A DNA stretch of 64,000 nucleotides. It comes from Actinocorallia sp. API 0066 (lineage in GTDB: Bacteria > Actinomycetota > Actinomycetes > Streptosporangiales > Streptosporangiaceae). Shown piece by piece: positions 1 to 25,151 of this stretch. Each line of letters opens with the position of its first letter. Position 1 is the stretch's first letter. A program made the translations under genes and the position numbers. Location: assembly GCF_020991275.1 (NCBI RefSeq), contig NZ_JAJLQY010000008.1, forward strand, positions 281,429-345,428. The letters run 5' to 3'. A model generated the notes under the pieces. It saw nothing but the letters and a program-made list of their open reading frames with translations, searched no databases and had not been told where the DNA came from.

Positions 1-3000
1 GCAGGCCACGGCCGTGGCCTGCGCTCCGAGACCGGCCAGTTCGGTGAGGAGGTCGCCGACGCCGGGGGCGTCCGGGCCGCGCCGCCCGGCCAGGAGCAGA
101 TGGCGGATCCCGTGCCCGGTGACCAGATGCCGGGCCAGCAGGGCGCCGAGCGTACCGGTCGCGCCGGTGATCAGGACCGTGCCCGAGGGGTCGAGCGGCC
201 GGACGGTCCCGTCGGCGGGGGAGGCCGCGGTGAGCCTCGGGACGCGGACGCCCTCGGCGCGCAGCGCCAGCTGGGGCTCCTCACCGCGCAGGGCGGGCAG
301 GAGCAGGGCGCGGGCGGCGGGGGAGTCCTCGACGTCTGCCAGGACGAACCGGCCGGGATGCTCGGCCTGCGCGACCCGGACGAGACCCCAGGCCTCGGCC
401 TGGCCGGGGTCGGCGTCCTCGCCGTCGCGGACGGCGACCGCGCCGCTGGTCAGCAGTGCCAGACGGGATCCGGCGAAGCGGTCGTCGGCGAGCCAGCGGT
501 GCAGCAGGTCCAGCACCGGCAGGGTGGCCGGGGCTCCGGGGGCGACAGGGACCGCGACGACGTCGGGGACGTCCTCGATCGCGGTGAGGTCGGTGCCGTC
601 CAGGACGACCACCTCGGTCCCGGTGCCGGGCTCGGGCCTGGCCGCGACCCAGTCGAGGGTGAACAGGGCGCCGTCGCCGTCCGAGCCGGTGAGGTCCGCC
701 GCGCTGACGGGCCGGACGCTCAGCGAGCCGGCGGTCAGCACGGGTGATCCGGCGGGGTCGAACACCGCCAGCGCGAAGGCGTCCGTTCCGAGGGCGGTCA
801 GCCGGACCCGCAGCCGGGTCGCCCCGGTGGCGTGCAGTCCGACGCCGGTCCACGAGAACGGCAGGACGGGGTCGGTGCCCTCGCCCAGCACGATCGGGTG
901 CAGGGCGGCGTCGAGCAGCGCCGGATGGAGCGCGAAGGCGGACTCGCCGGCCGGAAGGTCGATCTCGGCGTAGGAGTCGGCGCCGTGCCGCCACAGGGCG
1001 GTGAGCCCCTGGAAGGCGGGCCCGTACCCGTAGCCGCGGTCGGTGAGCCGCTCGTAGGCGCCGTCGAGGGGCTCGGGGCGGGCGCCGGGCGGCGGCCACG
1101 GGCCCGTCCACGCGGGCGCGGCGGGCGCTCCGGGAGCCAGGACGCCGGTGGCGTGCGGCGTCCACGGGGCGGTGCCGTCCTCGTCCGGGCGGGAGTGGAC
1201 GGCCACGGTGCGCCGTCCGGAACCGTCAGGACCGGCCAGGATCACCTGGACGCGGACCTCTCCGCGCGGCGGCAGGACCAGCGGCGCCTGGAGGATGAGC
1301 TCCTCGACCCGCTCCAGCCCCGCGGCCCGCCCGGCGTGCAGCGCCAGATCGAGATGGGCGGTCCCGGGCAGCAGGACGGTGCCGTGGACGGCGTGGTCGG
1401 CCAGCCAGGGCGAGGTCTCGGTGGACAGCGTCCCGGTGAAGAGGATCTCTCCGCTCCCGGCGGGTTCCACGACGGCCGTCAGCAGCGGATGGCCCGCGGA
1501 GTCCTGCCCGGCGGGAACGCCGCCCGCGGGGGCGGGCGCCGCGGGCAGCCAGAACTCCTCGCGCTGGAAGGCGTAGGTGGGCAGGTCGGCCGCGGGTCCG
1601 GTGCCGAGGACGGTCCGCCAGTCCACGTGCACGCCCGCGGCGTGGGCGTGGGCGAGCGCGGTGTGGAACCGGGTGACGTCGCCTTCGTTCCTGCGCAGGG
1701 TGGCGAGGGTGACGCCGGACGTTCCGGTGGCGTCGGCGGTCTCCTGGATCGCGGTCGTCAGCACCGGGTGCGGGCTGGCTTCGGCGAACGCGGTGTGCCC
1801 GTCGGCGAGGAGCCGGGCGACGGTGTCGGAGAAGCGGACGGTGTGCCGCAGGTTGCGGTACCAGTAGTCGGCGGTGAGCTCGGTCCCCTCGACGACCCGG
1901 CCGGTGACGGTCGAGTGCAGCGGGATCGTGGAGGGCACCGGCACGATCCCGTCGAGCGCGTTCAGGACGGCCGCACGGACCGTCTCGACCTGGGGCGAGT
2001 GCGAGGCGTAGTCGACGGGGATCCGGCGGGCCCTCACCTCGTCGGCGGCCAGCGCCGCCAGGAGCTCCTCGATCGCGCCGGCGTCGCCGGACACGACGGT
2101 CGAGACGGGGCTGTTGACCGTCGCGACCGCGAGCCTGCCCTCCCAGCGGGTCAGCAGCTCGCCGACCCGGGCGGCGGGCAGCGCGACCGAGACCATGCCG
2201 CCGGTCCCGGCGAGCGCGGTGATCGCCTTGCTGCGCAGGGCGACGACGCGGGCGGCGTCTTCCAGCGACAGCGCGCCCGCGATGTAGGCGGCGGCGATCT
2301 CGCCCTGGGAGTGGCCGATGACGGCGGCGGGCCGCACGCCGTGGTGCTGCCAGAGCCGGGCCAGGCCGGTCTGGACGGCGAACAGGGCGGGCTGGACGAC
2401 GTCGACGCGCTCCAGCGCGACCGGGTCGGCGAGCGCCTCGTGCAGATCCCACCCGGTGTGGGGGGCCAGGGCACGGGCGCAGGCGTCGAGGTGCTCGGCG
2501 AACACGGGCGAGCCGACCGCCAGGGCGAGCCCCATCCCGACCCACTGCGAGCCCTGGCCGGGGAAGACGAGCACCGGGTCGGCCGAGGCGCCCGCCACTC
2601 CGGTGACGGGGCCCTCGTGGCCGCGGGCGAGCGCGGCCAGCCCGGAGAGCAGGGCGTCGCGGTCCTCGCCGAGGACGACGGCGCGGTGGTCGAGCGCGGC
2701 CCGCCCGAGGGCGAGGGTGCGGGCGACGGCCGTCAGGTCCGCCGCGGCATCGGTCCTGAGCCGCTCGTGGAGGCGGGCGGCCTGCTCGCGCAGCGCCGCG
2801 CCGTCGCGGGCCGACAGGATCAGCGGCGGCACCTGGGCGGCCGGTTCCGGCGGCTGCGCGGGGGCCGGTGCGGGGGCCTGTTCGAGGATGACATGGGCGT
2901 TGGTGCCGCTGACGCCGAAGGAGGAGATCCCGGCGCGGCGGGGCCGGTCGTGGTCGGGCCAGGGGGTCGGCTCGGTCAGCAGGCGGACGGCGCCGGCGGT

Positions 3001-4160
3001 CCAGTCGACGTGCGGCGAGGGCTCCTCGGCGTGCAGGGTCGGCGGCAGCAGCCCGTGCCGTAGCGCGCCGATCATCTTGATGATCCCGGCGACTCCGGCG
3101 GCGGCCTGGGTGTGGCCGATGTTGGACTTGATGGATCCGAGCCACAGGGGGGTTTCGCGGTTCTGTCCGTAGGTGGCGAGGAGTGCTTGGGCCTCGATGG
3201 GGTCGCCGAGGGTGGTGCCGGTGCCGTGTGCTTCGACGGCGTCCACTTCGTGTGGTTGGAGTCCGGCGTTGGCGAGGGCTTGGCGGATGACGCGCTGTTG
3301 GGAGGGTCCGTTGGGTGCGGTGAGGCCGTTGCTGGCGCCGTCCTGGTTGACGGCCGATCCCTTGAGGACGGCCAGGACGGGGTGCCCGTTGCGCCGGGCG
3401 TCCGACAGCCGTTCCAGGAGCAGGAGGCCGACCCCTTCGCCCCAGCCGGTGCCGTCGGCGTCGGCGCTGAAGGAGCGGCAGCGCCCGTCGGGCGAGAGAC
3501 CGCGCTGGCGGCTGAACTCCACGAACGTCGCGGGGGAGGCCATGACCGCGGCGCCGCCGGCGAGGGCGAGCGTGCACTCGCCGTTGCGCAGGGCCTGGGC
3601 GGCCAGGTGCGTCGCGACCAGGGAGGAGGAGCAGGCGGTGTCGATGGTGATCGCCGGGCCTTCGAGGCCGAAGACGTAGGCGAGCCGTCCGGAGGCGACG
3701 CTTCCGCGGCTGCCGTTGCCGACATAGCCCTCAAGGCTGTCGGGTGCGGGTCCGGCCCAGGCCCCGTAGTCGCCGTACATGATGCCGGTGAACACCCCGG
3801 TCGGGGTGCCGCGCAGGGAGGTGGGGTCGATTCCGGCGCGTTCGAGGGTCTCCCAGGCCGTCTCCAGGAGGAGGCGCTGCTGGGGGTCCATGGCGGTGGC
3901 CTCGCGGGGCGAGATGCCGAAGAAGGCGGGGTCGAAGCGGGCGGCGTCGTAGAGGAACGAGCCGTGGCGGGTGTAGGCGGTGCCGGGTCGGTCGGGGTCG
4001 GGGTCGTAGAGGGCGTCGAGGTTCCAGCCGCGGTCGGCCGGGAGCGGCCCGATGGTGTCGGTTCCGGAGGCGACCAGGTTCCACAGCTCTTCGGGCGAGG
4101 TGACGCCGCCGGGGTAGCGGCAGCCGATGGCGACGACGGCGATCGGCTCGCCGGTGTCGG
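1..4160 (-). other. PKS extension module 2: KS-AT(methylmalonyl)-DH-KR, truncated by window edge
   Basis: The KS has IDTACSSS. The AT has GHSQGE and YASH (methylmalonyl type). The DH has [10 protein letters not shown] and DAALH. The KR begins with [12 protein letters not shown] and is cut off by the left edge before its stereochemical and catalytic motifs, so activity and KR type cannot be read here. If active, the module adds a second methyl-branched trisubstituted alkene. Confidence 0.88.
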
Positions 4161-7100
4161 CGGTGACGGCCGGGGCGGTGGGCGCCGCCGGGGTGGTCCC
4201 GGCCAGTTCGGCGGACAGATGGGCGGCCAGCGCGGTCGGGGTCGGATGGTCGAACACCAGCGTCGCGCTGAGCCGCAGCCCGGTGGCGACGTTCAGGCGG
4301 TTGCGGAGCTCTACGCCGGTCAGGGAATCGAAGCCGACGTCTTTGAAGGATCGTCCGGGTTCGACCCGTCCGGGCGAGCCGTGGCCGAGGACGGTGGCCA
4401 CTTCGGTGCGCACGAGTTCCTGGACGGCGCGGTCGCGTTCGGCGGCCGGCAGCCGGGCCAGCCTCTCCTTCCACGAGTCGGGAGCGCTTGCGGGCGTGGC
4501 GGCGGGCACCAGCTCGGCGAACACCGGGGCGATCTGCTGGGTCCTGGCCCGTGACCGGAGCGCGGGAAGGTTCAGCCGTGCGGGGACCGCGACAGGCGCC
4601 TGTCCCGCCAGCGCCAGATCGAGCTGGCGCAGTGCCTCGTCGGTGGGCAGGGGCAGCAGTCCGGTGCGGGCGGTGCGGCTGAGGTCCTGTTCGGCGAGAT
4701 GGCCGGTCATGCCGCTGGCCTGTTCCCACAGGCCCCAGGCCAGGGACAGCGCGGGCAGGCCGTCGGCGGCCCGGTGGCGGGCGAGGGCGTCGAGGTAGGT
4801 GTTGGCGGCGGTGTAGTTGCCCTGGCCGGGGCTGCCGATGATCCCGGTGACGGAGGAGAACAGCACGAACGCGGCGAGGTCCAGGTCGCGGGTGAGGCGG
4901 TGCAGATGCCAGGCGGCGTCGGCCTTGGGCCGCAGGACGGCGTCGAGGCGTTCGGGCGTCAGTGAGGTGATGACGGTGTCGTCGAGGATCCCGGCGGCGT
5001 GGACGACGCCGGTGAGGGGGTGGTCGCCGGGCACTCCGGCCAGCAGGGCGGCGAGGGCGTCGGGGTCGGCGGTGTCGCAGGCGGCCAGGGTGACCTCGGC
5101 GCCGTGCGCGCTGAGCTCGGCCTCCAGGGCGAGTGCTCCTTCGGCGGCGGGGCCGCGCCGTCCGGCCAGCAGCAGATGGCGCACCCCGTGCTCGGCGACG
5201 AGGCGCCGGGCGACGAGCCCGCCGAGCGTGCCGGTGCCGCCGGTGATGAGGACGGTGCCTTCGGGGTCGAAGGCGGGGGCGTGGCCGGCCGCCGGGTCGG
5301 CGGGCCGGGTCAGGCGGGGTACCAGGGCGGTGCCCTCGCGCAGGGCGATCTGGGTCTGCCCGGTGGCCAGGGCCGCCGCGACGGCGGCGGGCGTCGCGGT
5401 CTCGTCGAGGTCGAGGAGGACGAACCGGCCGGGCTGCTCGGACTGGGCGGTGCGCACCAGCCCCCAGACCGGGGCGGCGGCGAGCCCGCGCACGGTGTCG
5501 TCGGGGGCGGCGGCGACCGCGTCCCGGGTGACGATCACCAGCGGGACGTCGGCGGAGCGGTCGTCGGCGAGCCAGCGCTGGATCAGGTCGAGGACCGGCC
5601 CGGTCGTGGCGGCGAGGGTGTCGCCCTCGGCGGTGCTGACCGGGGCGAGCACGTACTCCGGCCGCCCGGAATCGTCGAACAGCGCGTCGAGGCCGGTGAC
5701 GGGCTCGTCGGCGAACAGCGGCGCGCCGTCGAGCACGGCCCAGCGCGGGAGGGGGGCGTCCGCCGCTGCGGGCAGGGGAGTCCAGGACAGTGCGTAGGGT
5801 CGTTCACCGCCGCGCGCGGTGGTGAACGAGGCGGGGTCGGCGGGCCGCAGGGACAGCCCGGACACCGATCCGGCGGAGCGGCCGTCGCCGTCGAACAGCT
5901 GGAGGGCGATCCCCTCGCCCGAGGGGGAGATCCGCGCCCGCAGGACGCGTCCGGCGGGCGCGCCCAGGGTGACGCCGCTCCAGGAGAAGGGCAGCAGCGG
6001 CCGGTCGGCCGGCGCGCCGCGCACCGTCAGGTGCAGGGCCGCGTCCAGGAGCGCGGGATGCAGAACGAACCCCGTGGTGTCGACGTCGTCGGGGAGCGCG
6101 AGGTCGGCGAAGATGGCCTCACCGGCGGTCCACGCGGCCCGGACCCCCTGGAAGAGGGGCCCGTAGTCGTAGCCGCGGGTGGCCAGGTCGTCGTACAGGC
6201 CGGTCAGGTCGAGGCGGCGGGCCCCGGCGGGCGGCCAGGCGGCGGCCGGGACGGCCGGCGCCGCGGGCTCCGGGGCGAGCAGGCCGGTGGCGTGCCGCGT
6301 CCAGGGCGGTTCGGGATCGCCGGCCGGCCGGGAGTGGACCGCGACGGCGCGCCGCCCGTGCTCGTCGGGCACGGCGAGGGTGACCTGGAGCTGGACGGCC
6401 TCCTGTTCGCCGAGGACGAGCGGCGCGTGCAGGGTGAGCTCTTCGATCCGGCCGGCGCCGGCCCGGGCTCCGGCGTGCGCGGCGAGGTCGACGAACGCGG
6501 TGCCGGGCAGCAGGACGGTCCCGGCGACGGCGTGGTCGGCCAGCCACGGGTGGGTGCGCAGCGACAGAGCGCCGGTCAGGACGGTCGCGTCGCCCTCGGC
6601 GAGGGAGAGCGCGGCGTTGAGGAACCGGTGCCCTGCGGGGTTCTGCCCGAGCGCGGACGCGTCGGCCGTCCCGGCGTTCACGGGGTCGATCCAGAACCGT
6701 TCGCGCTGGAAGGCGTAGGTCGGCAGGTCGTCGGCGGCCGGTCCATCGGGGAGCGCGGCGGACCAGTCGACGGGTGCTCCGGCCAGGCGGGCCTCGGCGA
6801 GGGACAGCAGGAACCGCTCGGCGCCGTCCCGGTCGCGCTGAAGGGTGCCGGCGGTGCGGGCGTCCGGCAGGGTGTCCTGGAGGGCGCCGGTCAGGATCGG
6901 ATGGGGGCTGACCTCGACGAACAGGGTGTGGCCGTCGGCGGCAGCGGCCCGCACGGTCCGCTCGAACTCGACGGTCTGGCGCAGGTTGCGGTACCAGTAG
7001 GCGGCGTCGAGCGCGGTGCTGTCGAGGAGCTCGCCGGTGACGGTGGAGTAGAAGGGCACGGCCGGGGGACGGGGGGTGATCCCGTCGAGGGAGTCGAGGA

Positions 7101-10100
7101 CGGGCCGCCGCACCGCCTCCACGTGCGGGGAGTGGGAAGCGTAGTCGACGGGGACCCGCCGAGCCCGCACCCCCTGCCGCTCGTACCGCGCGAGGAGCTC
7201 CTCGATCGCCTCGGGGTCGCCGGAGACCACGGTCGCGGCGGGTCCGTTGACGGTGGCGACGGCCAGCCGCGCGTCCAGGTCGGCGCGGACCTGCTCGGCG
7301 GGCAGCGCCACCGACGCCATCGCGCCGCTCCCGGCGAGCGCGGTGATCGCCCTGCTGCGCAGGGCCACGACGCGGGCGGCGTCCTCCAGCGACAGCGCCC
7401 CCGCGACATAGGCGGCGGCGATCTCGCCCTGGGAGTGCCCGATGACCGCGTCGGGACTCACGCCGTGCGCCCGCCACAGGGCGGCCAGCGACACCATGAC
7501 CGCGAACAGCAACGGCTGCACGACGTCGACCTCGTCCAGGGCCGCCGGGTCGGCGAGGGCCTCGTGCGGCGACCAGTCGATGTGGGGGGCGAGCGCGCGG
7601 GCGCAGGCGTCGAACTCCGCGCGGAAGACCGGGCTCGCGGCCAGCAGGTCCGTGGCCATCCCGGTCCACTGCGAGCCCTGCCCGGGGAAGACGAACACGG
7701 TCCTGGCCGAACCGGCCGCCTCTCCGCTGACGACGTTCGCGGCGCTCTCGCCCCGGTTCACCGCCCGCAGCCCGGCGAGGAGGTCGCCGGTGTCCCGCCC
7801 GACCACGACGGCCCGCCGTCCGAACGTGCTCCTGGCCAGCAGCCCGCGGGCCACCGAGGCGGGCGCGGCCGAGGGCCGCTCCCGCAGGTGGTCCGCGAGC
7901 CGTCCGGCCTGGGCCCGCAGGCCGTCCTCGCCCGCCCCGGACAGGACCAGGGCGACGGGCGGCGTGCTCCCGGGCTCCTCCGCCTGCGGCGCCGGCCGTT
8001 CGGCGGGCGGCTGTTCGAGGATCAGGTGGGCGTTGGTGCCGCTGATGCCGAAGGAGGAGACGGCGGCCCGGCGCGGACGTTCGGCGTCGTGGGGCCAGGG
8101 CGCGGGCTCGGTGAGGAGCCGCAGCCGGCCGGATCCCCAGTCGATGCGGGGGGTCGGGCTCTGGGCGTGGAGGGTCGCGGGGAGCGTCTCGTGCCGCAGA
8201 GCCATGATCATTTTAATGACGCCGCCGACGCCCGCCGCGGCCTGGGCGTGACCGATGTTCGATTTGAGCGAGCCCAGCCACAGGGGGGTGTCGCCCGCGC
8301 CGTAGGCGGTCTGGAGGGCGGTGGCCTCGATGGGGTCGCCGAGGGTGGTGCCGGTGCCGTGGGCCTCGACGGCGTCGATGTCCTGCGGGCGCAGGCCGGC
8401 GTCGGCCAGGGCGCCGGCGATGACGCGCTGCTGGGCGCGGCCGCTCGGCGCGGTGAGGCCGTTGCTGGCGCCGTCCTGGTTGATCGCCGAACCGCGGATG
8501 ACGCCGAGCACCCGGTGGCCGTTGCGCAGGGCGTCGGGCAGGCGTTCCAGCAGGAGCATGCCGACGCCCTCGGCCCAGCCGGTGCCGTCGGCGTCGGCGG
8601 AGAAGGCGCGGCAGCGTCCGTCGGCGGACAGTCCGCGCTGGCGGCTGAACTCCACGAACATGCCGGGCGTCGACAGGACCGTCGCGCCGCCCGCCAGCGC
8701 CAGGTCGCATTCACCGGACCGCAGCGACCGCGCCGCCAGGTGCAGGGCGACCAGCGAGGACGAGCAGGCGGTGTCGACGGTGATGGCCGGGCCCTCCAGG
8801 CCGAGCGCGTAGGCGATGCGGCCGGAGGCGACGCTGGTCGTGCCGCCGGTCAGCAGGTAGCCGTCCAGGCCGCCGCCGGGCTCGTGCAGCCGGGGCCCGT
8901 AGTCCTGCGCGGTCGCGCCGACGAACACCCCGGTGGGGCCGCCGGTCAGGCCGCGCGGATCGAGACCGGCCCGCTCGACGCTCTCCCACGCGGTCTCCAG
9001 CAGCAGCCGCTGCTGGGGGTCCATCGCGGCGGCCTCGCGCGGGGAGATGCCGAAGAACGCGGCATCGAACCCGGCGACGTCGCGCAGGAAGCCGCCGCCC
9101 CTGGCGTAGGTGGTCCCCGGGACGTCCGGGTCGGGGTCGTAGAGGTCCTCGAGGTTCCAGCCCCGGTCGTCGGGGAAACCGCCGATGGCGTCGGCTCCCG
9201 AGGCGACCAGGTTCCACAGGTCCTCCGGCGAGGCGACCCCGCCGGGGTAGCGGCAGCCGATCCCGATGACGGCGATCGGCTCGTCGTGGCTCGTCCGCAC
9301 CGTCCGCGTGACGGCGGCGGGCGGCGTCTCCAGCAGGTGGCGGGTGAGCGCGGCCGGGGTCGGATGATCGTAGACGAGGGTGTCGGCCAGCGGCACGCCG
9401 AGGGACTCGGTGAGCCGTTCGCTGAGCTCCACCCCCATCAGCGAGTCGAATCCGAGGTCCTTGAACGTCAGCGCGTCGTCGACCGCTCCGGGGTCGGCGT
9501 GCCCCAGGATCGCGGCGACCTCGGCCCTCACGGTGGCCTCCACCTCGGCGGCCTCCCCGGCGGCCGGGGGCGCCGCGGGATCGACCGCGACCGGCTCGGC
9601 CGCCGGCGCGGTACGGGCGGGCGCGGGGTCGCCGAGCCAGTGGACGCTGCGGTCGAAGGCGTAGGTCGGCAGGTCGACGACCCGGCCGGGAAGGATCAGG
9701 TCCCAGGAGGGTGACACGCCCCGGGTGTGCAGCCGGGACAGCGCGGTCAGGAGGGTCGCGGGCTCCGGCCGGTCGCGGCGCAGCAGCGGGATGATCGTCC
9801 GGCCGCCGCCGGTCGCGGTGCGGGTGAGTCCGCTGAGGACGGCGTCGGGCCCGATCTCGACGAACACCGAGGCGTCCGCGGCCAGCAGCGCCCGCACCCC
9901 GTCGTGGAACCGGACGGGCGCGCGCACGTGCCGCACCCAGTAGTCGGCGGAGCCGAGCAGCCCCGGTGCGGCGAGGGCGCCGGTCACGTTGGAGACCACG
10001 GGCAGGCGCGGTTCACCGTAGGCGAGCCCTTCGGCGACGGCCCGGAACTCCTCCAGGACGCCGTTCATGTGAGGGGAGTGGAAGGCATGGCTGACCTTCA

Positions 10101-12320: not shown

Positions 12321-12359
12321 TGGCGCCACGGGGGAACGCCGACGGCCCCGGGAGGGGGC

Positions 12360-12885: not shown

Positions 12886-13032
12886 GGCAGTGGCACGGTT
12901 CACCCCGACCAGCCGGGCCGCACCCGCGACGCTGCCGTTCTCCCGATCCAGCACCTCGAAAAACCGGGTCTTCAACTCCTCAAAACCCACGATCCCCACA
13001 ACTCCCTGAACGACAGGGTGTTGCGGGGACCA
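12886..13032 (-). pseudogene. IS30-family element 5' end: terminal repeat region and transposase N-terminus
   Basis: Residues MGIVGFEELKTRFFEVLDRE and GSVAGAARLVGVNRATA form the N-terminal helix-turn-helix region typical of actinobacterial IS30 transposases. They are preceded by a GGTGTTGCGGGGACC-like sequence (13017-13031) resembling an IS30 terminal repeat. After residue 38 the frame switches to maturase sequence (junction at NRATA|DPALK), so the gene is broken. Confidence 0.7.
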
Positions 13033-14160: not shown

Positions 14161-14951
14161 CGAAGGCTCGCCCGCCCCTCGTCCGAGGGCACCGCGTCGT
14201 GACCGGTCTCCTTGGGCGCCTCCAGGGCGTCCTTGATCTCGGTCAGGACGTCGGCCGCCTCCGCGCCGTCGATCACCCGGTGGTCGAAGGCCAGGCTGAG
14301 CCGCAGGGTCGGGGCGATGGCCAGGCGGCCGTCCCGCACGACCGGCCGGTCGGCTATCCGGCCGAGGCCGAGGGTGATCGTCGTTCCGCCGACGGAGTGG
14401 AACCCGTCGACGGGCCGGTGGCCGAGCGAGGTGACGGCGAAGGTGCCGAACCGTTCGGGCCGCCGGTCCAGCGGGCGGACGACCCGCCGGAACCCGGCGC
14501 GGCCGATCACCACGGGCAGCCGGTGCAGGGCCCTCAGCCCGGCGAACTCCGGCAGGTCGGCGGCGTCGCCGTCGCGGAAGTACTCGATGCGCTCCTGGAG
14601 GGCGAGCGGGTCGGCGGTGTCGGCGTCGGGCAGGACCGCCGACAGCACGACGCGCTGCCCGTTCAGCGTCTTGTCCAGGGTGATCTTCGCGTTGACGTGC
14701 GGATGGCGGACCAGCCGGGGCCGCAGCCCGCCGCGCACGGCGGCGTTGGCGTCGGGATGGCGGGCCAGGACCCGGGCCGCGGCCGACACCACGTGCGTCA
14801 GCGTCGACAGCCGCCGTGGCGCGTCGGCCTGCCGGGCGCGCAGCGCGCTGACGTCGACCTCGGTGTCGAGGAACACCGGCGAGAACGACCGGATCTCCTC
14901 CAGGAAGTACAGGGTGTGCAGCCGCTCGCGCGGGAAGGCGGGCCCGCTCAC
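14157..14951 (-). CDS. Tetronate O-acyltransferase, 2-oxoacid dehydrogenase E2-like (AbyA4/Agg4-like)
   Basis: The 264 residues correspond to the catalytic domain of dihydrolipoamide acyltransferases without lipoyl or peripheral-subunit-binding domains. The E2 active-site signature FDHRVIDG is at residues 222-229 with His224. In characterised tetronate pathways this stand-alone E2-like enzyme acetylates the primary hydroxyl of the tetronate ring, preparing it for elimination. Its start overlaps the stop of the upstream ACP gene (14948-14951), and it overlaps the eliminase gene, so translational coupling is expected. Confidence 0.9.
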   Translation of the reverse strand: MSGPAFPRERLHTLYFLEEIRSFSPVFLDTEVDVSALRARQADAPRRLSTLTHVVSAAARVLARHPDANAAVRGGLRPRLVRHPHVNAKITLDKTLNGQRVVLSAVLPDADTADPLALQERIEYFRDGDAADLPEFAGLRALHRLPVVIGRAGFRRVVRPLDRRPERFGTFAVTSLGHRPVDGFHSVGGTTITLGLGRIADRPVVRDGRLAIAPTLRLSLAFDHRVIDGAEAADVLTEIKDALEAPKETGHDAVPSDEGRASLR

Positions 14952-15175
14952 GCGCCCACCGCCACCGCGTAGATGCGCTCCAGGCTGCGCGCCTCCAGCA
15001 GATCGGTCAGGACCAGGGACCGGCCCGTGGTCCGCTCCAGGAGGGTCGCCAGCGTCAGCAGGTGCAGGGAGTCCCAGCCCGCCAGCTCGTCCAAGCTGCG
15101 CCCGACGTCCTCGGGGGTGACGTCCAGGCCCAGCTCGTCCTGGACGAGGGACACGAACTCATCGATCGTGGTCAC
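14948..15175 (-). CDS. Discrete acyl carrier protein for the glyceryl unit (AbyA3-like)
   Basis: A 75-residue ACP with the phosphopantetheine attachment motif GWDSLHLL (Ser36). It lies between the FkbH-like synthase and the E2-like acyltransferase with overlaps on both sides. In tetronate pathways this ACP carries the glyceryl three-carbon unit made from 1,3-bisphosphoglycerate, later joined to the polyketide chain to form the tetronate ring. Confidence 0.92.
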   Translation of the reverse strand: MTTIDEFVSLVQDELGLDVTPEDVGRSLDELAGWDSLHLLTLATLLERTTGRSLVLTDLLEARSLERIYAVAVGA

Positions 15176-17076: not shown

Positions 17077-18122
17077 CAGAGCCGCTCCAGCGCGAAGCCG
17101 GCTTTGATCCACTTGCTGGACTCCACTGCGATCCCGACCGCGCGGTCACCCCGGCCGAGCAGGCCCAGGACCTCTTCGAGCTGGAAGAACGCCAGCGCGT
17201 TCCCGCAGTTGCCGGTCTGGCCGACGCAGGTGATCTCCTCGGCGGTGTCCAGGCCGAGACGCTCGGAGATCCGGGCCGTCATCCGGCCGGACAGCTGCGG
17301 CGGCAGCACGAAGTCCAGATCGGTGTCCTTCCAGTCGAGGGAGTCGAGCAGCTCGGCGAGGATCTCGGCGGCCATCTCCGGCACCGACTCCTCGATGGCC
17401 TTGTAGTCCTCGCTGACGGCGGCCTCGCCGATCCCGGCGGCGCGTCCCGCGCGATCGGCCTGCCCGAACCAGCGGACGATCTGTCCCGGCGCGCGGCCCC
17501 GTCCGGTGAAGCGGGTCATCACCCGGCGCAGCGCGACCGTGCCGGGCGCCGGATCGGAGGTCAGGACGGCCGCGCCCGCGCCGTCGCCGAACAGCACCAC
17601 ATTGACGAGCTCGGCCGGGGGAAGGCTGCGCAGATCGGCCTCCAGGTCGAAGTGCCGGGCGCAGCTGTCGCCCGCGATGACCAGCGCGTTGCGGTGGCCG
17701 CCCCCGGCGAGCATCTGCCGGCCCACCTCCAGGGCCTGCACCGCGCCCGAGCATCCCGACTGGAGCTGGTAGGTCGGGATCTGGTCGATGCCCAGCCGGT
17801 CGGCGATCTCGTTGACCGTGGCGGGCATCAGCGCGTCGGGGGTGGCGGTCCCCATGACGATCACATCGATGTCGGCCGCGTCGGTTCCGGCGGCCGAAAG
17901 GGCCCGCCGGGCGGCCCGCTCGCCGAGGTCGGCCAGGGAGACGACGGTCTCGCCGGTGTCGAGGTCGACCGACAGGTGCCTGGTGCGGGTGCCGATGAAG
18001 ACGTCGATCCACTGCTGCCACAGATCGTCCATGCCGAACCGCCGGGCCAGGGTCACGTTGTCGACAGGCGGTCCGGGCAGGGCGGTTCCGGCGGACAGGA
18101 GGCGGATGTCCGATGCGTCCAT
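17076..18122 (-). CDS. FabH-like (KAS III) enzyme proposed to join glyceryl-ACP and polyketide in the tetronate ring (AbyA1/RkD-like)
   Basis: A 348-residue KAS III-fold protein with catalytic Cys124 (QSGCSGAVQAL) and the C-terminal Asn region (NCGNALAFFQ, about 305-314). The usual His motif PHQ is replaced by LPPQLSG near 273-279, so the classical Cys-His-Asn triad is altered. Homologs in tetronate clusters are implicated in C-C and C-O bond formation between glyceryl-S-ACP and the beta-ketoacyl chain. It is first in a five-gene overlapping operon. The ribosome site AAAGGA lies 7-8 nt before the ATG. Confidence 0.9.
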   Translation of the reverse strand: MDASDIRLLSAGTALPGPPVDNVTLARRFGMDDLWQQWIDVFIGTRTRHLSVDLDTGETVVSLADLGERAARRALSAAGTDAADIDVIVMGTATPDALMPATVNEIADRLGIDQIPTYQLQSGCSGAVQALEVGRQMLAGGGHRNALVIAGDSCARHFDLEADLRSLPPAELVNVVLFGDGAGAAVLTSDPAPGTVALRRVMTRFTGRGRAPGQIVRWFGQADRAGRAAGIGEAAVSEDYKAIEESVPEMAAEILAELLDSLDWKDTDLDFVLPPQLSGRMTARISERLGLDTAEEITCVGQTGNCGNALAFFQLEEVLGLLGRGDRAVGIAVESSKWIKAGFALERL

Positions 18123-18221: not shown

Positions 18222-20999
18222 TCAGCCGAGATCGGCCATCAGCCGGGCCAGCGTGGCACGCGACCGGATGTTGAGCTTCCGGTAGATGCGGGTGAGATGG
18301 ACGTCGACGGTCCGCGGGCTCAACGACAGCCGCTCGGCGATCTCCCGGGTCTTCAGTCCCGATCCGGCGATCTCGGCGATCTCCCGTTCCCGCTCGGTGA
18401 GCACCGTCAGGTCGACCGCCGCCCGGACCGCCGCCGGGGGCGGGGCGAGCCGCACCGCTCCGCCGCGCTGCGCCAGCTCCTTGGCCAGGATGCGGGTCGC
18501 CGCGGCCTCCCTGCGGTGCCCGAGCGTGCTGAGGTGCGGGACGATCGTCATGAGGGCGCGCGCCTGGCAGTGGATCATCCCCGCGGCGCCGAAGAGATCG
18601 GCGGCCTGGCGGTAGCGGGCGACGGCCCCGGCCAGATCGTCGCCGACCCGCAGGACCTCGGCCCGGGCCAGCAGCGCGTAGGCCCGCGGCGCGGGCGAGG
18701 CCAGCCCCTCGACGGCCTTCTCGACCCGGTCGGCCCAGGGGCCCGGCGGTTCGCCCGCGTCCAGCGAGGCCAGCAGTCCGAGCAGGAAGAACTGGGGCCG
18801 CAGGAACGCGGGGATCCCCGGCAGATGCGGGCCGCCGCCCGCGTCCAGCAGCACCGTGACGCTGCGCCTGGCCTCGCCCCTCAGCCAGGCCACGGTCGCC
18901 ACCGTCAGCGACGCCGCCACCCCCCAGTAGTGGTTGCCCTGCCGCAGCAGGGTCACCGACCGGTCGGCCAGCGCCGAGGCCTCGTCCAGCCCGGTGCCGC
19001 CCCACACCTCGCACAGCGCCTCCAGCGCGAGGGCCAGGCCGCGCAGATGCTCGGCGCGGATGCACTGGGCCAGCCGGTCGGCCTCGCCGGCCAGCCGGCG
19101 CGCGTCGGACAGGTGGCCGGTCTGCCGGTAGACGTTGCCGAGGCCGAGCAGCAGCGCGGGGAACACATGGCTCTGGCCGGTGCTCTGGGCGATGCGCATG
19201 GCGCGGGTGAAGTGGCGTTCGGCGTGCTGGAAGGCGCCGACGATCGTCTCGGCCCAGCCGAGCAGGCCGAGGTATTCGGGGTGGGCGGCCAGTTCGCCGT
19301 CCGAGAGCCGGTCGATGGCCCCGCCGCAGTCGGCCACCGAGTCCGGCGCGTGCGGGCGGTTCCTGAACGCGTCGCACAGGCCGTCCAGGACCAGGGCGCC
19401 CGCCTCGGCGGTCCGGTCGGCGTGCCGGCGGGCCAGGCGCAGGGCCATCTGCACCTGGCCGCAGCTCGGCAGCCGTCCGTCGAACGCGCCGATGATGCCG
19501 TGCTCGATGATGAGGGCCGCGGCCTCGGGGGGAGGGGAGGGATGGGTGAACGCGTGCGCCAGCTCGTCCTCCAGCAGGGCGCGCGCCTCTGTGAAGTTGC
19601 CCAGCAGGCACTCCACGACCGAACCGAACGCCACCGCCTGGGCGCGCGCGCCGAGCTCCTCCATCGGGATGGTCCGCAGGACGCGGTGCAGGAGGTCGCG
19701 GCTCTCCGACAGCCGCCCGCTCTGGCCCAGCGAACGGGCCAGGAACAGCGTGAGGTCGATGCGGGCGGGGCCGGGAGGGCTGATCCGCAGCGCCGTCTCC
19801 AGCCACTGGACGGCGGCGCCGGGGTCGGTCGGGAAGACCTCCTCGGCGGCCTCCCGCAGGATCTGGGCGTCGCGCGGGCCGCCCAGGGTCCGGGAGCGTT
19901 CGACGTGCACGGCCCGGTCGACGGCCGTGCCACCCCGGCTGGACAGCAGGTCGACCGCCCGGCGGTGGGCGTGCAGCCGCCAGGTCGGATCGGCCGTGGC
20001 GTAGATCAGGCACCGCAGCACGGGGTGGCGGAACCCGTAGGCGCCGGCGTGGTCGACCGGCCGCAGGACGTCGTGCAGGAGCAGGCAGTCCAGCGCGGCC
20101 TGGACCTCGTCGTGGCCGGCTTCGGCGACCACGGTCAGCGCCGCGGCGTCGCCGTGGTCGCCCAGGATCGCGGCGGCCGTGGCGATCCGCAGCGTCGCGG
20201 CGTCGAGGGTCGCGATCTCGCCGAGGATCAGGCTGGTGGACTGGGTGGGCATATCGCCGGGCAGTTCGTTCGGATCGATGCCGGCCAGCGTGAGCAGGTA
20301 GAGCGGGATGCCCTGGCTGACGCGGTGCAGTTCGTGCAGCCGGGCGTCGCCGGGGTCGAGGTCGAGCAGGTTCGCCGCCTCCTGGAGGGCCAGCGGGCCC
20401 AGCTCGATCCGGGTGGCGGCGCCCAGCTCGCAGGCGTGGGCGAGGCTGCCGCGCAGGCGCTGCGAGGCCTGGCGGGGACGCTGGGCGATGACGAGCAGGA
20501 CGGGCCCGGCGGTGGGCCGCCGCACGAGCCGGTCGATCAGGTCGGCCGAAGCGGGGTCGGCCCAGTGGAAGTCGTCCAGGACGACCAGGAGGCCGTCCCC
20601 GGCGGCCCGGCCGAGAAGACCGCGCAGCGCGGCGGCGATCCGCTGGCTCTCGCCGACGGCCGGGTTGGGGCCGCTTCCGGCGGCGGCGCGGGCGAGGATC
20701 TCGATGTCCTCGGCGGGAGCCCGGCCCGCGCGGTGGTCGCCGAGCGGGATCGATTCGAGGATCTGGGCGAGGATATGGAAGGGCAGGGCCCGCTCCTCGA
20801 CGACGCACCTGGCGTGGACGACCGGGATGGCCCGGCAGCGCGCCTCGTCCATCAGATCGGCCAGGAGCCGGGTCTTGCCGACGCCGGGTTCGCCCACGAT
20901 CTCGACCGTCCGGCCCGATCCGCCGCTCAGAGCGTCGAGGGCCGTGTGAAGTGCGTGGGCCTCGGCTCGCCGGAGGCCCGTGGTCTCGATGACGCCCAT
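18222..20999 (-). CDS. LuxR-family LAL transcriptional regulator, probable pathway activator
   Basis: A 925-residue protein with an N-terminal ATPase (Walker A GEPGVGKT, residues 36-43), a long TPR-like middle region and a C-terminal LuxR-type helix-turn-helix (LTEREREIAEIAGSGLKTRE through LNIRSRATLARLMADLG). This is the architecture of large ATP-binding LuxR regulators that activate macrolide and spirotetronate clusters. The ATG at 20999 is preferred over a TTG at 21017 because GAGGGAGAG precedes it. It is co-directional with and just upstream of the cassette operon, and divergent from the TetR gene. Confidence 0.93.
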   Translation of the reverse strand: MGVIETTGLRRAEAHALHTALDALSGGSGRTVEIVGEPGVGKTRLLADLMDEARCRAIPVVHARCVVEERALPFHILAQILESIPLGDHRAGRAPAEDIEILARAAAGSGPNPAVGESQRIAAALRGLLGRAAGDGLLVVLDDFHWADPASADLIDRLVRRPTAGPVLLVIAQRPRQASQRLRGSLAHACELGAATRIELGPLALQEAANLLDLDPGDARLHELHRVSQGIPLYLLTLAGIDPNELPGDMPTQSTSLILGEIATLDAATLRIATAAAILGDHGDAAALTVVAEAGHDEVQAALDCLLLHDVLRPVDHAGAYGFRHPVLRCLIYATADPTWRLHAHRRAVDLLSSRGGTAVDRAVHVERSRTLGGPRDAQILREAAEEVFPTDPGAAVQWLETALRISPPGPARIDLTLFLARSLGQSGRLSESRDLLHRVLRTIPMEELGARAQAVAFGSVVECLLGNFTEARALLEDELAHAFTHPSPPPEAAALIIEHGIIGAFDGRLPSCGQVQMALRLARRHADRTAEAGALVLDGLCDAFRNRPHAPDSVADCGGAIDRLSDGELAAHPEYLGLLGWAETIVGAFQHAERHFTRAMRIAQSTGQSHVFPALLLGLGNVYRQTGHLSDARRLAGEADRLAQCIRAEHLRGLALALEALCEVWGGTGLDEASALADRSVTLLRQGNHYWGVAASLTVATVAWLRGEARRSVTVLLDAGGGPHLPGIPAFLRPQFFLLGLLASLDAGEPPGPWADRVEKAVEGLASPAPRAYALLARAEVLRVGDDLAGAVARYRQAADLFGAAGMIHCQARALMTIVPHLSTLGHRREAAATRILAKELAQRGGAVRLAPPPAAVRAAVDLTVLTEREREIAEIAGSGLKTREIAERLSLSPRTVDVHLTRIYRKLNIRSRATLARLMADLG

Positions 21000-21436: not shown

Positions 21437-22045
21437 ATGACCAAGCCGCTCGCCGGGCCGCTCGCTTCGGATCCGCCGGGCCCGTCCCGCGCCATGCGCA
21501 TGGACGCCCGCCGGAACCGCGACAGGCTGCTGGCCGTCGCGGCGGAGGTCTTCGCCGAGGAAGGCGTCAACGCCTCGCTGAACGAGATCGCCAAGCGGGC
21601 GGAGGTCGGCGCCGGCACCCTCTACCGGCATTTCCCGACCCGGGAGGCGCTGCTGGAGTCCGTGCTGCACGAGCAGTTCGAGGACCTGGAGCGCCACGGC
21701 CGCGATCTGCTGGCCGCCCCGCCCACCGGCGACGTCCTGGCGGCCTGGCTGCGTGGGGTCATCACCCAGGTCACGAGCCTTCCGGGGCTGGCCTCGGTGA
21801 TGATGACGGTCCTGCACGGCGGAGGCTCCGAACTCGAGGCCTCGTGCTCCTCCGTCCGGGTCGCCGGCGCCGACCTGCTGGAGCGCGTCCAGGCGGCGGG
21901 CGAGGTCCGGGCCGGGATCGACATCTCCGACCTGCTGAAGCTCGTCATCGCGATCGCGCTGGCCACCGAGGGCGCGCCGGCCGGCTCGGGGGAGTCCGAA
22001 CGGCTGCTGGACCTGCTGCTCGCCGGCGTGCGCCGCGAAAGGTGA
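21437..22045 (+). CDS. TetR-family transcriptional regulator, likely controls the adjacent MFS exporter
   Basis: A 202-residue TetR protein with an N-terminal helix-turn-helix (ASLNEIAKRAEVGAGTLYRHF) after a 25-residue tail. The start is set by GGAGG at 21423-21427. It is tail-to-tail with an EmrB/QacA-type exporter whose promoter carries a TetR-like operator, so it is probably the repressor of that efflux gene. The ligand may be the cluster product or an intermediate (inference). Confidence 0.9.
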   Translation: MTKPLAGPLASDPPGPSRAMRMDARRNRDRLLAVAAEVFAEEGVNASLNEIAKRAEVGAGTLYRHFPTREALLESVLHEQFEDLERHGRDLLAAPPTGDVLAAWLRGVITQVTSLPGLASVMMTVLHGGGSELEASCSSVRVAGADLLERVQAAGEVRAGIDISDLLKLVIAIALATEGAPAGSGESERLLDLLLAGVRRER

Positions 22046-22129: not shown

Positions 22130-23620
22130 TCACAGCGCGCTGACGGGCTTGCCGCCCGTGGCGAGCCTGACCTTGTGCACGGCCAGCACGGCGATCAACG
22201 CGGCCAGGAGGGTGAAGCCCAGGCCGCCGTAGAACGCGGTGGAGATGCCGTGGGACAGCACGTGCGCCGCCTGGTCGTCCGGGGTGGCCCCGACCGGTGG
22301 CTTGGCGGCCTCGTCGCGGATGGCATGGCCGAAGACCGCCACCAGGATCGCCAGGCCGAGCGAGCCGCCGACCTGGAGCATCGCCTGGAGCAGGCCGGAG
22401 GCGGCACCGGAGTCCTCCTCCGGCAGCCCCGAAAGGATGATCATGTTCATCGGCATGAAGGTCAGGCCGACCCCGATCCCGAACAGCAGCATCGGGCCGA
22501 GCACGCCGGAGGCGAACCCGCTGTCCTCGGTCAGCCTGGTCAGCCAGATGACTCCCGCGGTGATGAGCAGCGTGCCCGTCACCATGACGGCCTTGGCCCC
22601 GACCTTGGGGAACAGCGCCGGAGCGGCTCCCGCGGCGGCCATCTGCGTCAGGGCCAGCGGCAGGAAGGCCACCCCGGCCGCGACCGGGCCGAAGCCCAGG
22701 ACCTCCTGGAGGAACTGGGTGAGGAAGAAGAAGACGCCGAACATCGTCGCGGGCAGGACGAGCGTCAGCGCGTAGGACGCGGCCCGGTTGCGCTGGGCGA
22801 ACAGGCGCAGCGGCATGATCGGCTGGCTCACCCGGGTCTCGGTGAGGAGGAAGACCGCCAGCAGGACCACCGCCGCCACGAACGACACGATGGTCTGGAC
22901 GTCCGACCAGCCCGCGGCCGAGGCGCGGATGAACCCGTAGACCAGGGCGGACATCCCGATCGTCGAGCTGAGGGCGCCGGTGAGGTCGAACTTGCCGGGG
23001 TGGCGGCGCGGTTCGAGCACGAAGCGGGGCGTCACGATCGCCACGATGACGCCGATGGGCACGTTGATGAACAGCACCCAGCGCCACGAGAGGCTGGTCA
23101 GGACGCCGCCGAGGATCAGGCCGAGGACCAATCCGGATCCCGCGACGGCCGAGAACACGCTGATCGCCCGGTTGCGCGCGGGCCCGTCCTCGTAGCTGGT
23201 GGCGATAAGCGCCAGCGAGCCGGGGGCGGCCAGCGCGGCGCCGACGCCCTGCAGGGCACGGGCGGCGAGCAGGAGCCCGCCGCTGGTGGCCAGCCCGCCG
23301 AGCAGGGAGGCGATCGTGAAGATGATCACGCCCCAGAAGAAGATCCTGCGGTGGCCGAGGATGTCGCCGCTGCGGCCGCCCAGCAGCAGCAGACCGCCGA
23401 AGGTCAGCGTGTAGGCGTTCATCACCCACGCCAGGTCGGTGGCGCTGAATCCGAGATCGCTCTGGATCTTGGGCAGGGCGATGGTGACCACGCTGGCGTC
23501 CAGCAGCACCATCAGCTGGACGGTCGCGATGATCGCCAGAGCGATCCCCGGCCGCCCGCCTCTGACGGCGGCCCCCTCCACGGCGGGGGCGGCTCCGGGG
23601 GTAAGCGCCGAGCTTGACAT
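22130..23620 (-). CDS. DHA2-family (EmrB/QacA-like) drug efflux transporter
   Basis: A 496-residue MFS protein with about 14 predicted membrane segments. It has the motif LDASVVTIALPKIQSDLG in the first helix and GGRSGDILGHRR as the loop 2-3 motif A. The ATG at 23620 (MSSSALTPG) is chosen over an in-frame ATG at 23713 because GGAGAG precedes it and the upstream part overlaps an operator-like palindrome. Its position in the tetronate cluster suggests self-resistance or product export; the substrate is not readable from sequence. Confidence 0.92.
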   Translation of the reverse strand: MSSSALTPGAAPAVEGAAVRGGRPGIALAIIATVQLMVLLDASVVTIALPKIQSDLGFSATDLAWVMNAYTLTFGGLLLLGGRSGDILGHRRIFFWGVIIFTIASLLGGLATSGGLLLAARALQGVGAALAAPGSLALIATSYEDGPARNRAISVFSAVAGSGLVLGLILGGVLTSLSWRWVLFINVPIGVIVAIVTPRFVLEPRRHPGKFDLTGALSSTIGMSALVYGFIRASAAGWSDVQTIVSFVAAVVLLAVFLLTETRVSQPIMPLRLFAQRNRAASYALTLVLPATMFGVFFFLTQFLQEVLGFGPVAAGVAFLPLALTQMAAAGAAPALFPKVGAKAVMVTGTLLITAGVIWLTRLTEDSGFASGVLGPMLLFGIGVGLTFMPMNMIILSGLPEEDSGAASGLLQAMLQVGGSLGLAILVAVFGHAIRDEAAKPPVGATPDDQAAHVLSHGISTAFYGGLGFTLLAALIAVLAVHKVRLATGGKPVSAL

Positions 23621-23705: not shown

Positions 23706-23756
23706 GTTCGCAACGGCGCCGGGACGAGGGGGCCGTCGTGACGCCGCTCGCGGGTC

Positions 23757-25151
23757 TCACCTGGAGGCGTCCGGGCTGATGGAGGCGTCCGGGCTGACCG
23801 CCTCGCGCTGCGCGGGCGCCGGGGCGCTGCGGGCGGAGGAGGTCAAGACCTTCGCGATGACGCGCGGGTGCAGGAGGGTCGCCGGGCTGGCGATCATCTG
23901 GGAGGTCGCGAAGAACCGCCGGTACAGGTCCAGGTCGCCGGGCACCAGGTTGATGAGCCGGTCGCTGTACCAGCGGCCGATGCGCTGGGACAGGCCGGGC
24001 TTCTGGTCCGACCAGCCCTGGTCGGTGCTGGTCGCCATCGTCCACGGCAGCCGCAGGGCCTTGGCGATCCGGCGCTGGAACTTGCGCTCCAGCCCGGCGG
24101 GGTCGCCGCTGGCCGAGACGAGCAGGGACTGGAGGATCTCCGCCTCGATCGCCGCGACGGTCATGCCCTGACCGTAGACCGGGTTGAACGCGCACACCGC
24201 ATCGCCCAGGACGACGAACCGCTCCGGCCAGCGGGCCTGCGTGTGGTAAGGGATCCATCGGTTCTGGAGCTTGACGGCATGGTAGAGCGGGCCGTCGGGC
24301 TCGCCCGCGGTGATGGCCTCGGCGACCAGGGGATTGGTCAGGGACCGGGCGAAGTCGACGAACTCGTCGGGGTCGCCGGGACGCTTCTCACCGCCCGCCG
24401 CGAACAGGGAGACCAGCCATCGCCCGTCCTCCACGGTGACCACGGCGCTGCCGCGCTTGCGGTGGGGGGCGTAGGTGAACTCGCCCGCGGTCTTCCAGTC
24501 GCCGTCGAAGTCGTCGGGGATGCGGAAGACCCGGGTGGTGTAGGAGAGCCGGCCGTCGATCACCTGCGCCTCGGGAACGGGGTAGCCCGCTGCCGTGAGC
24601 CAGGATTCGAGCTTCGAGCCGCGTCCGGCGGCGAACACGACCAGATCGGCGTCGACCTGCTCGGAGGTGTCCGGCGGGCCGGAGGCCGGCCCGCCGGACA
24701 CCCCGAGGACCCTGGTGCGGTCGTCGTTCCAGCGCAGGCCCTCCACCCGGAATCCGCTCCGCAGCGTGATCTCGGGCCTGCCGAGGACCCGGCGGCGCAG
24801 GGTGCGTTCCAGTGTCGTCCTGGTGACCGTCTGCACCTGCAGGCCGATGGTCCCGCGCGGCCCCGGCCCGTTGGGGAAGGCGACGCGGCTGGACTCGCCG
24901 CCGTCGAAGACGGGCGCCCCCGCGGCGGTGAGTTCGTCCCGCAGCCCCGGGAACAGGCCCTCAAGGATGTTCGCGCCCCGGGAGAGCAGCGCGTGCGGAT
25001 GCCTGGCCTGGGGGATTCCGCTGCGGTGCCCGGTCTCCTCGGTGATCGTGTCCTGTTCGAGAATCGTCACTTCGGAGAAATGGTCGGCCAGCACCCGCGC
25101 GGCCACCAGACCGCCGAAACCGGCCCCTACCACCACGGCGTTACGCGGCAT
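23757..25151 (-). CDS. FAD-dependent enzyme of the class A flavoprotein hydroxylase fold; candidate decalin-forming cyclase or epoxidase (PyrE3-like)
   Basis: A 464-residue flavoprotein with an N-terminal dinucleotide motif GAGFGGLVAARVLADHF, an acidic strand end (VTILEQD) and the second FAD motif GDAVCAFNPVYGQGMT. The segment GIPQARHPHALLSRGANIL is typical of the group that includes FAD enzymes of spirotetronate/spirotetramate clusters, among them PyrE3, a [4+2] cyclase forming a dialkyldecalin. The cyclase role here is inferred from family resemblance and context; an oxidative tailoring role is equally open. It precedes the MFS gene on the same strand. The ribosome site is AAAGGA. Confidence 0.8.
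   Translation of the reverse strand: MPRNAVVVGAGFGGLVAARVLADHFSEVTILEQDTITEETGHRSGIPQARHPHALLSRGANILEGLFPGLRDELTAAGAPVFDGGESSRVAFPNGPGPRGTIGLQVQTVTRTTLERTLRRRVLGRPEITLRSGFRVEGLRWNDDRTRVLGVSGGPASGPPDTSEQVDADLVVFAAGRGSKLESWLTAAGYPVPEAQVIDGRLSYTTRVFRIPDDFDGDWKTAGEFTYAPHRKRGSAVVTVEDGRWLVSLFAAGGEKRPGDPDEFVDFARSLTNPLVAEAITAGEPDGPLYHAVKLQNRWIPYHTQARWPERFVVLGDAVCAFNPVYGQGMTVAAIEAEILQSLLVSASGDPAGLERKFQRRIAKALRLPWTMATSTDQGWSDQKPGLSQRIGRWYSDRLINLVPGDLDLYRRFFATSQMIASPATLLHPRVIAKVLTSSARSAPAPAQREAVSPDASISPDASR

Follow-up and report, generated by a model that had tools for sequence, protein, structure and literature searches.

The window, a 64,000-nucleotide stretch of the Actinocorallia sp. API 0066 genome (contig C43, positions 281429-345428; assembly of 7.0 Mb in 44 contigs), cuts at its left edge through a tetronate polyketide gene cluster, here termed cluster A, which lies whole on the same contig at about 237-306.5 kb. 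We consider it moderately probable that the complete cluster A makes a C25 5-methylene tetronate whose trans-decalin is likely formed by a flavin-dependent [4+2] cyclase, and that spirocyclization likely does not occur. The direct observations behind this are the genes and their order, the module program, which three further genomes share, the finding of no AOC_like (spirocyclase family) gene in the cluster, and the placement of the flavoenzymes g26 and g25 among tetronate-linked ones. The stretch examined ran from base 40001 of C43 to its end at 345428, with genes called by a codon-score script. About 44 kb of cluster A lie to the left of the window and hold the remainder of polyketide synthase (PKS) gene 1, PKS genes 2-4, a transporter, tailoring genes and a regulator.

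Tetronate cassette

The initial annotation, made on the window, had proposed a spirotetronate cluster with five genes in the content and order of abyA1-A5 of abyssomicin. These genes are as follows (window positions).

13072..14160, minus strand: AbyA5-like alpha/beta hydrolase (PDB AbyA5 4ywf, E 3.9e-120; Pfam)
14157..14951, minus strand: E2-like acyltransferase, AbyA4/Agg4 type (PF00198, E 2.9e-21; HRVIDG motif in the sequence)
14948..15175, minus strand: stand-alone acyl carrier protein (ACP), AbyA3 type (PF00550)
15172..17076, minus strand: FkbH-like glyceryl-ACP synthase, AbyA2 type (TIGR01686, 296 bits against a cut-off of 147, E 2.8e-88); the other possible start is GTG at 17112
17076..18122, minus strand: FabH-like tetronate-forming enzyme, AbyA1 type (PF08545/PF08541; PPQLSGRMT signature)

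All five frames were open, the domains and the AbyA5 match agreed with the proposed content and order, and adjacent genes overlapped by 1 or 4 bases. The PPQLSGRMT signature of the window FabH-like protein was likewise present at all nine hand-picked reference loci. A search with a 17-row alignment of the window hydrolase gave at least 75 loci; among the 75 listed, the order FabH-FkbH-ACP-E2-hydrolase was kept within 8 kb in 35, and in 52 when FkbH was ignored. Since so many of the listed loci keep the gene order, the cassette was deduced to be a recurrent unit rather than a chance arrangement. Within the window's genus (3 genomes), the hydrolase search found the window's own genome only.

The FabH-like, FkbH-like and stand-alone ACP genes thus occur together, and they do so beside a modular PKS, as the claim of a tetronate polyketide cluster had held; the tetronate assignment for cluster A is well supported. 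The gene pair invoked for the exocyclic methylene was also present, identified by PF00198 and the AbyA5 match. The chemistry of this pair is predicted: the hydrolase would eliminate acetate to leave the 5-methylene group.

Polyketide synthase and predicted chain

The PKS is encoded by four genes.

Window 12228 to C43:275303 (6125 bases left of the window), minus strand: PKS gene 1 (gene call, motif scans)
C43:263880-275252, minus strand: PKS gene 2 (gene call)
C43:252446-263830, minus strand: PKS gene 3 (gene call)
C43:249108-252425, minus strand: PKS gene 4 (gene call; Pfam docking, KS, AT, ACP)

Modules were read by motif for KSQ, acyltransferase (AT), dehydratase (DH), enoylreductase (ER) and ketoreductase (KR), and a Pfam domain scan was made for the last PKS protein only. 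The motif readings were as follows (KS, ketosynthase).

Loading module: KSQ, malonyl AT, ACP
M1 and M2: methylmalonyl, DH-KR
M3 and M4: malonyl, DH-KR
M5: methylmalonyl, DH-ER-KR
M6: malonyl, DH-ER-KR
M7: methylmalonyl, DH-KR
M8: malonyl, KS-AT-ACP

The proposed KSQ initiation was borne out by the motif VDTAQSSS, which begins at residue 164 of the 6117-amino-acid protein starting at window position 12228, and the further modules expected to the left were found, giving KSQ plus eight modules in the four genes. The part of PKS gene 1 inside the window (1..12228) encodes the KSQ-AT(malonyl)-ACP loading module, modules 1-2 and module 3. In the last PKS protein, Pfam found docking, KS, AT and ACP domains and no thioesterase; a last module without thioesterase is a mark of tetronate systems. 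The Ser, Tyr and Asn residues were kept in 7/7 KR domains, and the His and Asp residues in 7/7 DH domains.

A linear reading of these modules predicts an 18-carbon chain with four methyls, which together with three glyceryl carbons gives C25H32O4 (counted by hand). By hand calculation its [M+H]+ would be 397.237, and that of an oxidized form, C25H32O5, 413.232. The diene at C10-C13, the tether at C6-C9 and the dienophile C4=C5 would fit an intramolecular [4+2] reaction to a decalin. A spirohexenolide-like class I macrocycle, in which the methylated C25 chain would undergo direct spirocyclization without a decalin stage, is improbable. The carbon count equals that of spirohexenolide, a C25 spirotetronate without a decalin; against this, the M5 and M6 enoylreductases leave exactly the four saturated carbons that tether diene and dienophile in a decalin precursor, cluster A encodes two decalin-clade flavoenzymes, and no spirocyclase gene was found in it.

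One feature separates the PKS from the cassette.

12225..12999, minus strand: remnant of a mobile element, separating PKS gene 1 from the hydrolase gene (RF00029 group II intron piece at 12464-12541, 55.9 bits)

The flanks of the intron piece look by eye like remnants of an IS30-type transposase and an intron HNH gene, and the open reading frame at 12538-12999 had no Pfam match. That this insertion cut PKS expression and left a silent or decayed cluster is highly improbable. The intron piece and transposase-like remnants do fill the 843-base gap that parts the hydrolase gene from PKS gene 1, but the insertion is intergenic, all cluster A genes are open frames and the KR and DH catalytic residues are retained.

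Search for a spirocyclase

The spirotetronate part of the proposal was not supported. No AbyU-type (AOC_like) gene was found in cluster A or in three complete related clusters, and the small barrel cyclase of AbyU/PyrI4 type suggested for the vicinity of the cassette was detected in cluster A neither by the AOC_like profile PF18678 nor by tblastn. A PF18678 search of the genome gave one strong match, at C43:135255-135623, and another far below the cut-off on C44. An AOC_like gene, which marks spirotetronate clusters, was thus not found in cluster A, and the sole strong one, about 100 kb away, probably belongs to another cluster (below). Its product, P0125 (C43:135243-135794), matched AbmU (E 3.6e-13), 5dyv (2.5e-8; we take this to be AbyU) and, weakly, PloI4 (0.005) and Tsn15 (0.02), and from these matches it was deduced to be a real relative of AbmU. 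It lies 102 kb from the nearest called cluster A gene and 159 kb from the cluster A hydrolase.

When 22 AOC proteins were searched by tblastn against the 305 kb of contig, the P0125 gene and one chance match in an EF-hand gene were returned; since 6 of the 22 queries matched nothing, divergent members could escape this search. At C43:344645 (window 63217) the kijanimicin AOC protein had a weak match, which was rejected because it falls in an EF-hand protein. As a control, PF18678 matched above its cut-off in 18 of 19 reference tetronate genomes chosen from the hydrolase loci, which speaks for detection and co-occurrence rather than adjacency. The exception was G005, Streptomyces sp. NRRL F-5123. 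There, at locus L039, tetronate genes lie beside a ChlE3-like enzyme, and PF18678 finds no AOC_like gene in the genome; this is perhaps another unspirocyclized decalin tetronate.

A second tetronate cluster, cluster B, occupies C43:53930-101787 (L020-L023). It contains FabH, ACP, E2, hydrolase and thioesterase genes, KSQ with a six-module PKS, and also FkbH, a luciferase-like enzyme, an ABC transporter and two cytochrome P450s; its genes are 42-59% identical to their cluster A counterparts. Module 4 lacks a KR motif and the last module is KS-AT-ACP, both as in abyssomicin systems, where the corresponding KR is described as inactive (PMC3625739, PMC5819245). The P0125 gene stands with genes for an aldo/keto reductase, LAL, MFS and SARP proteins at C43:134242-141332 (L015, L016), 32 kb beyond cluster B and separated from it by genes without cluster A counterparts. 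Because the abm cluster has such genes too (PMC5819245), this group looks like the rest of cluster B, and P0125 would then belong to a second, abyssomicin-like tetronate cluster. In the AOC tree, which has long branches and leaves the wychimicin-strain enzyme L042 unplaced, P0125 groups with enzymes of S. abyssomicinicus and L066 (support 94/87).

It seems unlikely that cluster A makes a class II spirotetronate through P0125 acting in trans, so that the C14-C17 diene is added to the 5-methylene group and one cyclase serves both tetronate lines. P0125 is a true AbmU relative, the predicted chain ends in a terminal diene, and 18 of the 19 control genomes carry an AOC_like gene. Set against this are its grouping with abyssomicin-strain enzymes and the state of the related genomes, of which G258, G265 and G269 share the cluster A program: neither G265 nor G273 has an AOC_like gene, G258 has a partial one 2.3 Mb off, and G269 has one 18 kb outside its cluster. 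The G269 gene was rejected as the spirocyclase of its tetronate cluster since, besides this distance, its product is dirigent-like with a signal-like start by eye and its neighbor is an amidase gene. Moreover, by our own atom count, spirocyclization after decalin formation would give a seven-membered ring, compared with an eleven-membered one in nomimicins A-C, which according to PMC8404215 are the smallest spirotetronates of their class. We conclude that spirocyclization in cluster A is unlikely.

Flavoenzymes

Three flavoenzymes may bear on the fate of the chain.

C43:241183-242697, minus strand: g26 flavoenzyme (gene call, domain scan)
C43:239650-241128, plus strand: g25 flavoenzyme (gene call, domain scan)
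Window 23757..25151, minus strand: MonCI/Lsd18-type FAD monooxygenase, predicted epoxidase (PDB MonCI, E 1.3e-60)

The best solved relatives of g26 were ChlE3, Tmn9 and TedJ (8r1r, E 2e-103), with PyrE3 seventh; the names Tmn9 and TedJ for the matched structures follow PMC12380092. For g25, FlsO1 ranked first and ChlE3 second, which makes its role less clear. Both g26 and g25 have an FAD_binding_3 domain and a C-terminal thioredoxin-like domain and fall within the tetronate-linked clade, as PyrE3/ChlE3/TedJ-type enzymes should. When seven reference genomes, selected for a flavoenzyme adjoining the cassette, were searched with g26, the cassette-linked enzyme was the top match in every one (344-385 bits; other matches at most 300). 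In a 28-row tree, midpoint rooted as drawn, these seven enzymes, five from related clusters, g25, g26 and row L144 came together (100/99), and g26 joined the kijanimicin, lobophorin, wychimicin-strain, L039 and L041 enzymes (99/98).

The Asn of the flavin loop is replaced by Ser, Thr or Gly in all seven cassette-linked enzymes, ChlE3, Tmn9, TedJ and g26 (Thr), and is kept in g25, in 5/5 related-cluster enzymes and in 14/14 other rows. From this pattern and the solved relatives, g26 looks like a cyclase and is the candidate [4+2] decalin cyclase, while g25 may be an oxygenase.

An FAD enzyme beside the cassette had been noted in the initial annotation; it is present at 23757-25151 and is here corrected to a relative of MonCI/Lsd18-type epoxidases. 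All nine PDB sequences listed at E 0.001 were of the epoxidases MonCI or Lsd18/LasC, and a role as PyrE3-type [4+2] cyclase was rejected since PyrE3 was not listed at this threshold. A homologue search returned a large actinomycete family and gave no lead to function. Because no counterpart was found in three related clusters, its membership in cluster A is likely, not more. The epoxidation assigned to it is predicted.

Quite improbable is a polyether-like tetronate, for which the MonCI-like enzyme would epoxidize the chain, cyclic ethers would form, and g26 and g25 would act like Tmn9/Tsn11. The closeness of the FAD enzyme to MonCI/Lsd18 and the rank of Tmn9 as second-best solved relative of g26 are in its favor, but the predicted chain lacks the spaced trisubstituted alkenes typical of polyethers and the MonCI-like gene is absent from the three related clusters. 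In addition, no epoxide hydrolase turned up among the scanned cluster A genes, in scans not aimed at such enzymes.

Related clusters

At E 1e-90 the hydrolase matched in 39 of 341 family genomes, the window's own included. The four closest relatives (67-71% identity) comprise three complete clusters, in G258, G265 and G269, and one cut by a contig end, in G273. G258 and G265 each have 20 genes in common with cluster A, and G269 has 18 within a stretch that ended before the thioesterase and SARP genes. All three complete clusters agree with cluster A in the AT order of M1-M8, in having DH in M1-M7 and in having ER in M5-M6; the motif script missed the G269 loading KS, the G265 M1 KR motif and a few LDD motifs. 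Tailoring genes were Pfam-scanned in part (6 in G258, 6 in G269, 1 in G265), the others being assigned by position and length. All three carry genes for P450, ferredoxin, SnoaL-like and SDR proteins, and the G258 cluster, where it was scanned, an amidohydrolase gene as well; they lack the MonCI-like gene, the PPTase (phosphopantetheinyl transferase) gene and a g26 counterpart. The SnoaL-like genes (L180 in G258, L189 in G269, L193 in G265) adjoin the flavoenzyme genes, and that of G269 either forms a fusion with the ferredoxin gene or is reached by read-through from it.

Several observations weigh against an unspirocyclized decalin product. The related-cluster flavoenzymes match g25 best, keep the loop Asn and include, in the three complete relatives, none that is a g26 counterpart; a decalin for the whole family, and the enzyme that would close it there, are thereby less certain. 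In each related cluster one flavoenzyme has lost the preceding Pro and a Gly, with the Asn kept. Among the residues named for ChlE3 (Pro12, Glu32, His97, Asp280 and Pro287), His97 is reported as universally conserved in decalin cyclases (PMC13273814). The g26 protein has four of the five, with Gln for His97; Gln also stands there in TedJ, Tmn9 and 4/7 cassette-linked enzymes. As a marker the five residues were rejected, since they do not separate cassette-linked from unlinked rows. The M7 DH has Asp in place of Gly in HxxxG, and none of the three related clusters has a counterpart of the MonCI-like gene. Finally, P0125 is an AOC_like enzyme in the same genome that could act in trans on cluster A, and its grouping falls just below the 95 support mark. 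In the reference strains G002 and G007, 72-75 kb of a single contig separate the AOC_like gene from that of the hydrolase, so distance alone (159 kb here) is weak evidence against a spirocyclase role.

Other genes of the cluster and contig

The remaining genes of cluster A and its surroundings are listed below, with window positions unless C43 is given.

18222..20999, minus strand: LAL/LuxR regulator (PF13191 and PF00196)
21437..22045, plus strand: TetR regulator (PF00440 and PF21597)
22130..23581, minus strand: MFS exporter (PF07690)
C43:243811-249047, minus strand: oligopeptide ABC transporter (gene call, domain scan)
C43:242708-243745, minus strand: luciferase-like enzyme (gene call, domain scan)
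C43:237419-239567, plus strand: PPTase, type II thioesterase and SARP regulator (gene call, domain scan)

The domain matches bear out the LAL regulator and TetR/MFS pair that had been placed beside the cassette, and LAL counterparts, 52% identical, adjoin the cassette in the three related clusters. Sugar genes, also suggested as worth looking for, were not seen among the scanned cluster A genes. Left beyond cluster A lie a carboxyltransferase gene, a Tn3-transposase piece and a DUF4158 gene; from about 26 kb of the window on, the scanned genes (UvrD-like, thiolase, acyl-CoA dehydrogenases and others) look unrelated. Window 60568-63798 encodes two proteins with DUF6230 and a calcium-binding EF-hand relative of calerythrin. 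In the interval from cluster B to cluster A, C43:120022-128221 (L015, L024) holds a further oligopeptide ABC transporter set and luciferase-like genes.

A third FkbH gene of the genome lies at C1:7467-12499 (L025), adjoined by dehydrogenase-like genes and a small ACP, with a PKS upstream. By their look these neighbors are presumably a methoxymalonyl extender set, and the locus was rejected on this resemblance as a third tetronate cluster.

Proposed pathway and relation to known systems

The PKS is proposed to make CH3-CH=C(Me)-CH=C(Me)-CH=CH-CH=CH-CH2-CH(Me)-CH2-CH2-CH=C(Me)-CO-CH2-CO-ACP. The FkbH-like enzyme would put a glyceryl unit on the ACP, and the FabH-like enzyme would join glyceryl unit and chain to the tetronate with chain release. 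Acetylation by the E2-like enzyme and elimination by the hydrolase would then give the 5-methylene group. Decalin formation would follow, with g26 joining the C10-C13 diene to the C4=C5 dienophile across the four-carbon tether, and spirocyclization would probably not take place. The pendant C14-C17 diene may be oxidized by the MonCI-like enzyme, presumably by epoxidation, together with g25 and the luciferase-like enzyme. The pathway may end with the enol oxygen of the tetronate attacking a C14-C15 epoxide, which would form a seven-membered ether as in tetrodecamycin.

Compared by pathway description, tetrodecamycin is nearest in logic to this predicted product. It is a 5-methylene tetronate whose trans-decalin is formed by the flavin [4+2] cyclase TedJ, with no spiro ring, after which the P450 TedH carries out epoxidation and ether bridging (PMC12380092). 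Cluster A differs in its eight extension modules, predicted C25 skeleton and pendant diene, and in that its epoxidase candidate is a flavoprotein rather than a P450. No TedH-type P450 was found among the scanned cluster A genes, the related-cluster P450s matching only cluster B on the 305 kb; the MonCI-like enzyme may stand in for it.

The class II spirotetronates (kijanimicin, L046; lobophorin, L055; chlorothricin) share with cluster A the five-gene cassette, a KSQ-type PKS and the g26 flavoenzyme clade, but unlike it they add a spirocyclase (PMC13273814, PMC6521127), an AOC_like enzyme found in the kijanimicin and lobophorin genomes and described as ChlL for chlorothricin (PMC13273814). The kijanimicin PKS is also longer, with loading plus 11 modules (PMC10951976), and kijanimicin has sugars. 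Nomimicin D is reported as an unspirocyclized precursor (PMC8404215). Abyssomicin and neoabyssomicin clusters (aby, abm) share with cluster A the abyA1-A5 cassette, KSQ, an oligopeptide ABC transporter, a luciferase-like enzyme, and LAL, SARP and TetR/MFS genes (PMC3625739, PMC5819245). They have loading plus 6 extension modules and AbyU/AbmU, in contrast to cluster A with its loading plus 8 and without an AbyU/AbmU-type gene found in it. It is cluster B, with KSQ plus six, that fits this class I type. The polyether tetronates (tetronomycin, tetronasin, tetromadurin) resemble cluster A in a PyrE3-type flavoenzyme and a MonC-type epoxidase, and tetromadurin also in the exocyclic-methylene gene pair (PMC7489565), whereas the cluster A PKS is shorter and no methoxymalonyl genes, nor any epoxide hydrolase (not specifically searched for), were seen. 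Further literature on known systems is found in PMC10946715 and PMC7176366.

Searches of the open-access literature found neither a C25 decalin 5-methylene tetronate nor a description of cluster A; the compound may be new, and nothing found contradicts this. A decalin is likely in this strain, and the product is likely antibiotic-like and not yet isolated, combining a pair of fused six-membered rings with a reactive tetronate ring. Only tentatively do we propose that a family here and in at least three other actinomycetes retains the electrophilic 5-methylene group rather than using it up in spirocyclization, with loading plus eight modules and a flavin [4+2] decalin, and that epoxidation by a flavoenzyme rather than a P450 and enol capture in this strain lead to an unisolated C25 tetrodecamycin-type scaffold.

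If the proposal is true, a whole group of clusters whose five tetronate genes suggest spirotetronates makes unspirocyclized decalin tetronates instead, that retain a Michael acceptor, a feature proposed to matter for the antibacterial action of tetrodecamycin (PMC12380092). The g26 enzyme would be a candidate for closing a decalin on a C25 chain, and replacement of the flavin-loop Asn may serve as a quick genome-mining marker to tell [4+2] flavoenzymes from oxygenases. In a strain with two tetronate lines and one spirocyclase-type gene, cross-talk between them would be directly testable.

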